Assembly (NCBI GenBank): GCA_016180195.1
Contig: JACPBS010000005.1
Span: 44,262 to 108,261 of the forward strand
Length of the DNA stretch: 64,000 nucleotides
DNA from: Candidatus Woesearchaeota archaeon
Lineage (GTDB): Archaea > Nanobdellota > Nanobdellia > Woesearchaeales > UBA10216
Reading direction: 5' to 3'
The translations under genes were made by a program, and so were the position numbers. Below the pieces are notes generated by a model. It was given only the letters and a program-made list of their open reading frames with translations, was not told where the DNA came from and made no database searches. Below, piece after piece: positions 6,001-62,718 of the stretch. Each line of letters opens with the position of its first letter. Position 1 is the first letter of the stretch.

Positions 6001-9000
6001 GATCGTCTTGGCCGGATATTATGTCTTGTGCAGAGGGAGTTGTGATGAATACGTTATTTACCTCGACATTTCTTGTTTTGTTGTTTGCCTCTCCCAGGCT
6101 GTTTCTGACAGTTAATCTTAAGGTGTACGAGCCTTCCACAAGTCCAAGCGTGTTCCAGCTTCCGAGTTTTCCATTTATCACTGGCATTGAAGACTGGATT
6201 ATCGTTGCCCATGTTTGGGGATTGTTTCCTGGAGCGTATTCAAGTGTGTAGTCTGTGAAGTTGGAAGCGAATGCGGTGCCGTTTACGTCTATTATTCCTG
6301 TTACCTTTCCTGAAATATCGATGTAAGATGTTGGGAACGTATCGCTTTGTGTGATTGCGGCAAGCACATTTACAAGCCCTGCACCCTGAGAGTATTTGTC
6401 AATTCCCTGGTCAACAGCAGTCTTGATCATCGAGTCTTTTATCTGCTGGGGCCCCCACGAAGGGTGTGCCTGCTTGATTAAAGCTGCTGCTCCTGCAATG
6501 TGGGGTGTTGCCATCGAAGTTCCGGAAATTGACACGTGTATGTTGTCGATGCATCTTGAGCCTGACCATGCGCTATCCCATTCTGCTGCGCAAATGTTTA
6601 TCCCTGGGGCTGAGATGTCTGGCTTGTCAATGCTGCCTCCGCTCCACACAAAAGGCCCTCTGCTGCTGAATGAAGCGATTGGATTGCTGCAATAGCCATT
6701 GGTTCCGATGTTCTCAGGCCTGCACCAGGCAGCCACTGTCATTGCTTTCCTGGCGCAGCCAGGGCATGCTATGGTCTGGGGATTTGGCCCTGAGTTGCCG
6801 GCAGCTACCGAAACGAAAACCCCGTTATTGAATGCGTTGTCAACTGCCTGTGAGGCGGGGTCATCAGGAGTTCCCGAGCCTCCGAGGCTTATGCTTATCA
6901 CGTCTGCTCGGTCTGAAAGGTTGCCGTCTCCGTTTGGATCCAGTGCCTTGTTTATTGCTGCGATTATGTTGCTGTATGAGCATTGCCCTCCTGAGCTGCA
7001 TACCTTGTATGCGTATATGTCTGCATCTGGCGCCACCCCTTTCAGCGCCCCTTTGCCAGCTGCGGTTGCGGCAACATGGGTTCCGTGTCCATGGTCATCC
7101 ATTGGGTCGGGGTCGTTGTTTTGGAAATCGTAGCCTGCTTTTACCTTGCACTGTGGTCCGAAGCATCCTCCTAGGTCTGGGTGGGTGTAATCAATGCCTG
7201 TGTCCACGATTGCTATTGTCCTTCCGAGGCCGGTGATTTTGTTGCCGGAAGAGTCGTTTAGTTTCCATACAGAATCTGCCTCGATGTAAGCTGTTGATGT
7301 TAAGAGGTCTATTGTGATTATATTATTGGGGTATATTTTCTTTACACCGGGCTGACTTTTTATTGTTTCGATTTCGCCTTCGGATACGTTGAGCAGCGCC
7401 CCGTTGAATGCTGTGTCGTATTCCTCTTTGATTTTCTCTTCGCCATTGATGATTAGTCTTTTTATGTTTTGGCGGAAATTAGTGTGTTCGTTTTTTATCC
7501 TTGATTTGTGCTGCGTTATTGAAGTAGGCCTGTTGAGTTTTGTAGAGTTCAGGTCTGTTTCTAGTTCATTCAGCCTTTTGTTCAGGTTATATTTCCTTAT
7601 CGTTCCGGTTATTATCGCAAGGCCCTTCGTGTCAACCCCTTCGATTTCTTTCCTGAGCATTTTCGCCCTGGTTTCCTTTACTGAAATATCCGCATTTATT
7701 ACGCTTTCAACAGCCGATATTGGCTGTTCATCAAACTGCACTATATAGCCCTCAAATGCTGTGCTTATGTTTGATTCCGTAGAATAGAACATCTTGCTTG
7801 TTCCGAAATCCTCAGGAAGGGTTTCCATTATGTTTGTGGGTTGCGTTGTGTTTGCCTGGGTTGGGAATGGTGCAATGCCTGGGCATGAGCTTCCGTTGCT
7901 GCTGGTTTTGCAGTCAATGAAGCAGTTCGATATGGTTTCTCCTGAATCGCATTTTCCGTCGCCGCATTCGCCGTATTTAATGTTTAGGTTGGCAACGAAA
8001 AAAGTCGGATCCTCCATAACGTATAGAGTCGAGATGTTGTCATTGTAACCTGCTTTGCTTACCCTGACTGTTCTAGGGCCTGTCTTGGCGTACATCAGGT
8101 TGACAGGGGTTTCTCCTATGTATGCGTTATCCAGATAAACATCGGCTGCGCTGGGTTGTGATCCTACAAAGAGTGGCCCGATGCCAGCGGTTTGGTTGCC
8201 AACTGAAACTTGCACGCTTGTTTCTGCAGCGTTGTTTGCCTCATTCGACTCCGTTACTGAGGATTGGTCGTCAGCTATAACCTTGAGCGTGTGGGTTCCC
8301 GTTCCTCCTATTCTCGCATCCACCCCCATATCCCAGCTTTCACCTGGCGCTAGTGGGTATATATACGTCCCCCCTAATGCATCCCGAACGCCGTCAAAAT
8401 GTACCCATGCTGTGCTTTGCCCTGCGTTTGCTGTTCCGATGTTCATAACTACTTCATGGAATCTTAATGTTGTTGTGCCCCCTGGGTTCGGCACACTGTA
8501 GGTTTTTTGCTTTGGCTCGACTATCGCCACAATATCAGGAGCGTCGTTTGGTCCTGGCGTGTGCATCGTTAGTGGAATATCGATTACTGTTTTCCCTTGA
8601 GCGATTGTTATTGGTTTATTTATGAAATCGTATCCCTGTTTGGAAACCGTAAGTACATGGGTCCCTGGAGAAAAGCCATGGACGCTTAAGGGGGTCAACC
8701 CCCAATTGTAATAATCTATCTTGACCCTTGCCTCATCAACATTTGATCGGAATTCTATGAGGGTGTTCTCTAGGGGTTCCTGATTCTGGACAGTTAGAAG
8801 CCTTTTTTTGGTTGAAGTTCCGATACTGGCTACAAACATGTGTTGCCCTGTTCCTACCTTCACATTGAACGTGGATGACTGAGTTTCCCCTGGTGACATT
8901 GAGGGTATCTGGACACTCCATGAGTTTACTGTATAAGAGCCATCCCAGCCTCCATCCTTGAGTGTCAGGTTTGCAGGCGGTGAGGGTGATGTTCCGGTGT

Positions 9001-16553: not shown

Positions 16554-16594
16554 GGATTCGATGACAGCTATAAATTTTTAATTAAAAAGGGCTT

Positions 16595-16746
16595 ATTGAA
16601 AACCTGGTTGTTGCTGAAACCGATTCGGTTCACTGAAGTGAACTCCTTTTTTCTCTCCCCTTCGGAACCGAGGGGAGGAAAAAAGAACCTTGGTTAAACA
16701 AGGCGAATCGGATCGTTTACAACAGAACATGCAATAGGTTTTCAAT
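16595..16746 (+). repeat. Multi-hairpin inverted-repeat element, copy A
   Basis: 11 bp perfect terminal inverted repeats ATTGAAAACCT (16595-16605) / AGGTTTTCAAT (16736-16746); internal stem CCGATTCG/CGAATCGG; three hairpins. About 90% identical to the reverse complement of 62516-62668. Confidence 0.93.
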
Positions 16747-16801
16747 GCGCCATTAAAAAGAAACTTTTTTATATCTTCTTTTTTTCTTAACGATTGTTAA
16801 C

Positions 16802-17170
16802 ATGGTTTTGCCCCAGGAAATTGAGATTTGGTATGTCATCCCTGCATTGAGGAGGGAATTGGCTCTGGAGCTTGTGAGGGGGCATTCAATGCCTCAGAAA
16901 AGAATAGCTTCTGTTTTGGGTCTCACTGAGGCGGCTGTTTCCCAGTATGTTTGCCTGAAGAGGGGTGCAAAGGTGCATTTTCCCCGTTCTCTTAGAAGGG
17001 AAATCGCGCTTTCAGCAAAGAGGATTGCTAATGGTTCGGATGCAATGAGGGAGCTGATGGGCCTTTCAGGTAATCAGTTGGTAAGGAGCCTCGTTTGCAC
17101 GTTGCATAGGAAGGGGAACCCTTCGTTGAGGAATTGCAGGATCTGTTATGGTGGATATGAAAGGGCTTAG
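16802..17170 (+). CDS. HTH transcriptional regulator, Cys-containing, first gene of the SUF operon
   Basis: RELALELVRGHSMPQKRIASVLGLTEAAVSQYVCLKRG is an HTH; C-terminal CTLHRKGNPSLRNCRICYGG. Confidence 0.7.
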   Translation: MVLPQEIEIWYVIPALRRELALELVRGHSMPQKRIASVLGLTEAAVSQYVCLKRGAKVHFPRSLRREIALSAKRIANGSDAMRELMGLSGNQLVRSLVCTLHRKGNPSLRNCRICYGGYERA

Positions 17171-61638: not shown

Positions 61639-62502
61639 ATGATCGAGCTTATTTTTCTGGGTCTGGCCATAATGCTTGCGTGGGGTTTTGGTGATTTCAT
61701 CATGGCCTACATTTCTAAAAAGGGTAACAGCCCTTTTTTGCTCAATTTTTGGGGAAGCGTTGTTTCCCTGGCGGTCGTTTCAGTTGTTTATTTTGCTTTT
61801 TTCTTCCCAAAAACAGTTAGCGGCATCTATTGGCTTATTGTCTTTGCTTCTTCTATAGTTGTAGTCCTCTCGTTTATATGTTTTTATAAGGCGGTTGCTG
61901 TAGGAAAGGTTTCGTTGATCAGCCCTATAACTAGCAGCTATGGCATTCTTTCCATGTTCCTGGGCCTTTTTTTCCTTAAGGAGTCGTTGAGCAGGACTCA
62001 GTATATCGGTATTTTCATTTCAACTATTGGCCTGCTATTGGCAGTTCTTAATATTTCAGAGCTGAGGAGGCTTAAGATCAGCAGCCAGGTTGAAGGATTG
62101 AAATATGCAGTTTTTACCTTTGTCTTATGGGGGATTAATTTCACTTTATCTGCCGTGCTGGTTAAGGGTGCTGATTGGGTGACGCCGTTTTTCTTTTCAA
62201 GCATTTTTTCTGTCCCGTTGTCTTATGCAATTCTCAGGAGAGCTGAAGGGAAAATGTCTTTGGGATTGAAAAGAGAGACTTTTCTTTTGTTTTTTGTAGC
62301 CGGAATACTCCTTCAGGCTGGCGCTCTTGTGTTTACGTTCTCCCTTAACAGTTTCCCATCCGCTCTTCTCGCTCCTATTTCTGCGGGCTACCCTGCAGTT
62401 ATCATAATCCTGGCGCATTTTTTCTTCAGGGAGAGGATAGCGGGGATTCAGTATGCGGGCGTTGTATTGATACTTGCGGGATTGGCTGTTGCTGCTGTTT
62501 AG
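61639..62502 (+). CDS. EamA/DMT-family transporter
   Basis: 10-TM-like ORF: LAIMLAWGFGDFIMAYISKK; ISPITSSYGILSMFLGLFFLKESLSRTQYIGIFISTIGLLL; second half repeats LAPISAGYPAVIIILAHFFFRERIAGIQYAGVVLILAGL. Confidence 0.93.
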   Translation: MIELIFLGLAIMLAWGFGDFIMAYISKKGNSPFLLNFWGSVVSLAVVSVVYFAFFFPKTVSGIYWLIVFASSIVVVLSFICFYKAVAVGKVSLISPITSSYGILSMFLGLFFLKESLSRTQYIGIFISTIGLLLAVLNISELRRLKISSQVEGLKYAVFTFVLWGINFTLSAVLVKGADWVTPFFFSSIFSVPLSYAILRRAEGKMSLGLKRETFLLFFVAGILLQAGALVFTFSLNSFPSALLAPISAGYPAVIIILAHFFFRERIAGIQYAGVVLILAGLAVAAV

Positions 62503-62515
62503 ACTAAAGGATCAT

Positions 62516-62668
62516 ATTGAAAACCTATTGCATATTCTGTTTGTAATGATCCGATTCGCCTTTGTTTAACCAAGGTTCTTTTTTCCTCCCCTTCGGAACC
62601 GAGGGGAGAGAAAAAAGAAGTTTACTTCAGTGAACCGAATCGGTTTCAGCAACAACCAGGTTTTCAAT
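62516..62668 (-). repeat. Multi-hairpin inverted-repeat element, copy B (opposite orientation to copy A)
   Basis: Same 11 bp TIRs ATTGAAAACCT (62516-62526)/AGGTTTTCAAT (62658-62668); reverse complement aligns to 16595-16746 with few substitutions and single-base indels. Confidence 0.93.
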
Positions 62669-62718
62669 AAGGCCGACCAAAGGCTAAATTTTTAAATGAT
62701 AATAACACCTGTATTTTT

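Follow-up and report, generated by a model that had tools for sequence, protein, structure and literature searches.

A mobile element of Woesearchaeota with a conserved four-way junction at its core

The element at positions 16590-16751 of the window (the whole 64,000-nucleotide stretch of a Candidatus Woesearchaeota contig that was analysed) is almost certainly a MITE, i.e., a small transposon that is not autonomous, and the four-armed fold of its interior is real and not a product of chance. As far as the literature searched shows, the kind of element is that of a MITE and the new part is a gap-free four-way core that is conserved across different classes of terminal inverted repeat (TIR). 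Conservation of this fold despite almost wholly changed stem sequences suggests that the DNA shape itself matters.

Extent and genomic setting

Comparison of copies moves the boundaries outward to 16590 and 16751 (GGCTTATTGAAAACC...GGTTTTCAATGCGCC) from those of the preliminary description, which gave an element of about 152 bp closed by 11-bp TIRs. These TIRs (16595-16605/16736-16746) are exact, but the element extends beyond them to a true length of 162 bp on the plus strand, with GGC...GCC ends that are common to the full copies and abut the target-site duplication (TSD). The TSD is an exact 9-bp direct repeat, ATTAAAAAG, found on the plus strand at 16581-16589 to the left and at 16752-16760 to the right. 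The left TIR, GGCTTATTGAAAACCT (16590-16605, plus strand), pairs with 16736-16751, whose minus-strand reading, GGCGCATTGAAAACCT, is its counterpart, and it resembles the IS5-like TIRs GGCTCTGTTGAAAATCT / GGCATAGTTGAAAATCT. The element carries no transposase gene, and no ORF of at least 80 aa overlaps its 162 bp.

It is located between divergent genes, namely a taw1-like radical SAM gene (with Pfam Wyosine_form and Radical_SAM matches) and a small gene with a weak helix-turn-helix match that starts a SUF cluster. The small gene with this match, at 16802-17170 of the window, overlaps the start of the cluster and is a possible SUF regulator. Across genomes the elements are mostly intergenic, and their distance to facing start codons is typically about 35-70 nt, with 34 of 75 at 30-80 nt by crude ORF calls. 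This places the elements immediately upstream of the usual location of archaeal promoters, so that side effects on the expression of neighbouring genes are possible.

Evidence for mobility

Direct repeats of 8-10 bp (with at most one mismatch) border GG...CC ends at 27 of the 69 places with enough flanking sequence, compared with 1 of 69 when the flanks are shuffled. An empty site also exists. A copy in the relative G009 is flanked by the TSD GCTAGTGG, and the corresponding sequence of G017 is an uninterrupted ...TACGCTAGTGGGAAGC... that contains a single GCTAGTGG. The joined flanks of the G009 copy are 85% identical to G017 with no interruption. The same spacer holds other inserts in G014 and G015 (L170, L171), and the G015 insert contains a MITE-like end (GGTAAAGTCAACTTGTCTG).

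The TIRs, the TSD, the small size without a transposase, and the multiple copies with evidence of movement together identify a MITE. The proposal of the preliminary description that this is a non-autonomous mobile element is borne out by multiple copies, TIRs, 8-9 bp TSDs, the empty site for one copy, and end sequences that resemble or equal those of IS5-like elements. It belongs to a MITE superfamily of Woesearchaeota that IS5-like transposases probably move in trans.

Fold of the element

The 152-nt stretch from 16595 to 16746 folds as RNA at -64 kcal/mol, compared with -35.4 kcal/mol in dinucleotide shuffles (z -7.8 for this plus strand), and as DNA at -40 compared with -16.1 (z -8.2). Its minus strand reaches -61 (z -7.6). 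Native stability is matched by 0 of 200 shuffles in each of the RNA, DNA and minus-strand folds, so that folding both strands, a check that the preliminary description had proposed, places each of them far below its shuffled controls.

The stem and TIR coordinates given in that description are all exact. On the plus strand, the 5' side of the closing stem, CCGATTCG (16620-16627), forms eight pairs with its 3' side, CGAATCGG (16704-16711), and seven of these eight columns covary. Arm 1 is the hairpin GTTCAC-TGAA-GTGAAC (16628-16643), which is supported by both the fold and covariation and has nearly invariant basal G-C and T-A pairs. The central arm (16644-16687) follows from the fold and has a pyrimidine-rich 5' half and a purine-rich 3' half. 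Arm 3 is the hairpin CCTTG-GTTAAA-CAAGG (16688-16703), in which five of five columns covary and both basal C-G pairs are nearly invariant. The base of the central arm contains one mismatch in this copy (TCC...GAA) that is absent from sister copies (TTC...GAA). Because of this mismatch, the four-way junction that was originally described as gap-free is present here but is strictly gap-free only in the sister copies.

Conservation and covariation

Two covariance models were used: R1, built from the three full copies of the source genome, and R2, a core model built from 25 diverse cores. Since R1 had been fitted to a structure, the fold was tested independently. When one core per 75%-identity cluster is folded de novo, the minimum-energy structure is the junction in 17 of 30 clusters, compared with 0-5 of 100 dinucleotide shuffles for each, and is a different structure in the other 13. 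RNAalifold, given no structure, recovers the identical gap-free four-way junction from a plain MAFFT alignment of the 25 diverse cores that was itself made without structure, and at least one double compensatory change occurs in 27 of its 31 pairs.

Of the cells of this alignment, 95.6% are paired, compared with 74.7% in shuffled and 44-53% in slid controls, and the covariation score is 0.608, compared with 0.199 when shuffled and at most 0.150 when slid. Doubly changed cells number 163, compared with 45 in shuffled and 13-33 in slid alignments. All these counts include events that are not independent, since the aligned cores are relatives of one another and were for the most part picked for folding as the junction; the slid control preserves this relatedness.

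The pairs adjacent to the junction are nearly fixed among 19 clusters: G-C in the closing stem (15/19), G-C in arm 1 (17/19), T-A in the central arm (18/19), and two C-G pairs in arm 3 (15/19 and 18/19). Pairs distal to the junction vary freely and use many pair types. The arms are mostly 11-17 nt (arm 1), 43-44 nt (central arm) and 17 nt (arm 3) long, and the linkers between them have zero length.

Copies in the source genome and relatives

The preliminary description had staked its reading on the existence of other copies with arms that covary. Searches with blastn and the covariance models find copies in both the source genome and its relatives, and their arms do covary. The source genome, a 1.23-Mb Woesearchaeota MAG, contains three full copies and at least four damaged ones, as counted by sequence searches (blastn). 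The second full copy in the window (62511-62674, minus strand) is 92% identical to the first and is bordered by a TSD with one mismatch, GACTAAAGG (62502-62510) / GACCAAAGG (62675-62683). The apex of the central arm, TTCGGAACCGA, reads inverted in this copy, TCGGTTCCGAA.

Several damaged copies have informative breakpoints. Only the 5' half of L012 (G000:C25, near 7515-7595) remains, and it ends at the central-arm apex with CCTAATTTA on either side (by eye), which we read as an internal deletion that stopped a few bases before the right end. L014 (G000:C5:104904-104997) has lost everything from inside hairpin 1 through the end of arm 3 and retains its TIRs and the TSD AATAACTG. In the damaged copy at C5:39710, it is the 3' half that remains. 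Breaks that fall at the apex and the junction would fit deletions provoked by the structure. Short partial matches at C21:75699, C22:11525 and C11:22400 have no surrounding element and were taken as chance.

The relatives with exact-pattern matches are Candidatus Woesearchaeota MAGs, mostly from groundwater. The covariance models find the architecture in 14-15 of 19 family genomes (14 with R1 alone). Across 362 genomes of the order, R1 has matches in 23 genomes and R2 in 28 genomes from nine families. A phylum sample of 382 genomes gives a single weak match outside the order. Most of the matches in other families that were examined adopt the same fold.

Individual relatives display further rearrangements. 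G012 contains about 45 copies (e.g., L103, L104 and L105) of a MITE of about 143 bp with GGTAATTTCAAGTTAAGTG ends and 9-bp TSDs, in which the central arm is retained and the side arms are mostly gone. L031 and L033 of G013 share one core, oriented alike, but the outer six bases of their TIRs (GGCGTT / GGTCAC) are exchanged between the ends, and the interior seems to have inverted between the repeats. In L028 (G014:C48), the end that comprises arm 1, the closing stem and the right TIR is tandemly duplicated over about 50 bp.

Candidate partner transposase

The ends of core-bearing elements fall into several classes that resemble or match the TIRs of IS5-like transposases with 9-bp duplications. 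The source genome contains an IS5-like gene (C12:6-923) that encodes 306 aa with PF01609 and PF05598 domains. Its best NCBIfam match is to transpos_IS5_2 (NF033579), at 135.4 bits, just under the cut-off of 140. The TIRs of this IS, GGCTAATATGAAATCCTC / GGCTCTTGTGAAATCCT, are equal or nearly equal to those of the core-bearing MITE L028, flanked by ATTCCAAAC. The two halves of a 9-bp duplication of this IS, CCAAAACAA, are split between contigs C4 and C12. Its relatives have the 9-bp target duplications GTTTTGGGC and CTTATAAGC. Other relatives end in GGCTCTGTTGAAAATCT / GGCATAGTTGAAAATCT, which are close to the GGC.TTATTGAAAACCT of copy 16590-16751, and further ones end in GGCTTAGTAGAAAGTC, which is similar to the ends of the MITEs L156 and L157. 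An IS5-like IS (L025, at G000:C12:1-1016 and the contig ends of C1 and C4) breaks the assembly with its copies, which lie at contig ends.

The TIR type (GGC...TTGAAAA / ATGAAATCC / GTAGAAAATC) and the 9-bp duplications are common to the MITE superfamily and the IS5-family elements of the source genome and its relatives, but the MITE has neither a transposase nor any part of an IS interior. No exact transposase partner for the GGC.TTATTGAAAACCT ends of copy 16590-16751 was found in the source genome, where the nearest TIRs differ at several positions. In nine genomes searched for a transposase between GGTAATGTCAAGTT ends, paired ends are about 125-165 bp apart and no autonomous copy was seen, and no partner transposase was found for the roughly 45 copies of this class in G012.

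Origin and role of the conserved fold

Selection on a single RNA strand would tolerate G.U mismatches and not A.C mismatches. When all cores are placed in one orientation, there are 41 G.T and 52 A.C mismatches, and helices 1, 2, 3 and 5 of the core alignment have a summed 157 double changes versus 4 single-sided standard changes. Because G.T and A.C mismatches are equally common, the pairing is not preserved in the form of an RNA read from one strand; the counts fit pairing that is kept at the DNA level, either by selection or by hairpin-templated copying. The fold would thus appear to act as DNA. A structured RNA, with transcripts over the element that fold into the junction and act in stability, processing or the regulation of a neighbouring gene, could explain why both strands fold strongly as RNA and why the elements are often about 45 nt from start codons. 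It is nevertheless an unlikely account, given wobble pairs with no strand bias, the near absence of single-sided G-U changes, and positions upstream of promoters instead of within transcribed leaders. In addition, Rfam has no match at gathering score to the element or to ten diverse loci (the sole matches nearby are to a tRNA and to the end of an unrelated rRNA), and a tRNA search makes no tRNA-like call on the element. We rejected RNA as the main explanation on the mismatch test and the scarcity of single-sided changes. The T-runs of the central arm are missing in several subfamilies and so are not the conserved feature, which speaks against a terminator and makes the earlier judgement that this is neither an operator nor a terminator a reasonable one.

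The explanation that we favour, with moderate confidence, is an IS5-mobilised MITE with a conserved DNA-level junction that is presented to a protein. IS5-like DDE transposases would recognise GGC-TTGAAAA-type terminal repeats, move the MITE in trans, and duplicate 8-9 bp of target. The inner 93 bp or so would be a conserved module in which a closing stem of roughly 8 bp carries the short arm 1, a pyrimidine/purine central arm of about 43 nt and a 17-nt arm 3. This module would fold, either within one DNA strand or by extrusion of a cruciform, while the region is single-stranded or supercoiled. If this fold forms, it would bring the two TIRs together and present a junction of fixed shape with near-fixed base pairs to the transposase or to a host junction-binding protein, and engagement by this protein would raise the transposition rate or survival of the element. 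We infer that the role of the fold is to bridge the TIRs and to give a protein a fixed junction to bind. The G012 class counts against this explanation, as its roughly 45 copies have spread well with their side arms largely lost, and so do the 13 of 30 clusters with another minimum-energy fold and the failure to find an exact transposase partner for the GGC.TTATTGAAAACCT and GGTAATGTCAAGTT ends.

Long palindromes can keep their arms complementary through template switching, and covariation alone is therefore no proof of selection on function. An ordinary MITE in which the palindromes remain self-complementary by mutation mechanics alone (template switching or hairpin copying) and the fold has no function would be expected to show double-sided changes with no G.T intermediates, as a result of hairpin-templated correction. 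The apex inversion in copy 62511-62674 and the exchange of TIR tips between L031 and L033 show that template events do occur. These mechanics leave unexplained why pairs beside the junction are near-invariant and why cores that otherwise share little have arms of set length (43 and 17 nt) joined by zero-length linkers, as well as the occurrence of the same core between different TIR classes. We consider such a functionless fold rather improbable, if less so than a structured RNA, and hold with moderate confidence that the fold is maintained because the folded DNA has a function. A further reading takes the core to be an independent, shape-recognised "DNA cloverleaf" that has come to lie within the ends of one IS5-like transposon after another across the archaeal order and is kept by selection on folded DNA, with its junction bound by a dedicated or host protein. 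This reading is tentative and in some doubt.

The preliminary description also likened the element to viral or replicon inverted terminal repeats (ITRs). In a parvovirus (AAV-type) ITR, a single strand forms a stem with gap-free hairpins at its tip and occurs in flip and flop orientations. If the terminal repeat or the origin of a virus, or of a replicon with single-stranded DNA, had become scattered in the genome, it would account for this shape and for the inverted apex. Such ITRs are found at the very ends of linear replicons that carry a Rep gene, whereas the copies here are interior and intergenic, have IS-like ends, and are flanked by target duplications. One exact pattern scanned over 2.9 million viral contigs has no match, and searches of phage and plasmid records find no relatives. 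This origin is very improbable, and the likeness (a stem with gap-free hairpins, and segments found in both orientations) is a resemblance only: the MITE has three arms instead of two, an interior position, target duplications and no replicon.

Relation to known systems

Prokaryotic MITEs such as QMITE2 of Coxiella are short, intergenic, multi-copy elements that have TIRs and 7-9 bp direct repeats, lack ORFs, form stable predicted stem-loops, and supposedly depend on IS transposases for mobilisation in trans (PMC10969869). The Woesearchaeota element shares their size, absence of ORFs, TIRs, direct repeats, and intergenic, multi-copy, stem-loop character. It differs in having an interior whose gap-free four-way junction has been conserved from subfamily to subfamily by compensatory changes, and in that one interior occurs between several different TIR classes. 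No description of MITEs from DPANN or Woesearchaeota, or of cloverleaf or compensatory MITE structures, was found in the open-licence literature searched. Integron attC sites are recombination substrates that are recognised by the shape of a folded strand, with most of their sequence variable. The MITE core is similar in its conserved folded-DNA shape and variable sequence, but the element moves with TSDs, i.e., in the DDE manner.

The interiors of MITEs are usually regarded as passive filler, whereas the four-armed fold described here is conserved across subfamilies and between different transposon ends. If the DNA-cloverleaf reading is true, it would represent a mode of transposon parasitism for which we found no earlier description. 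The family also provides a mobile element that can be searched for by covariance in DPANN archaea, for which there are few descriptions of mobile DNA, and in the Woesearchaeota, a little-known archaeal group. If the function of the fold is confirmed, the element would offer a clear example from nature of selection that acts on folded DNA in a chromosome, and a means to study whether living archaea form cruciforms, and it would suggest that the success of a transposon can depend on the structure of its interior.
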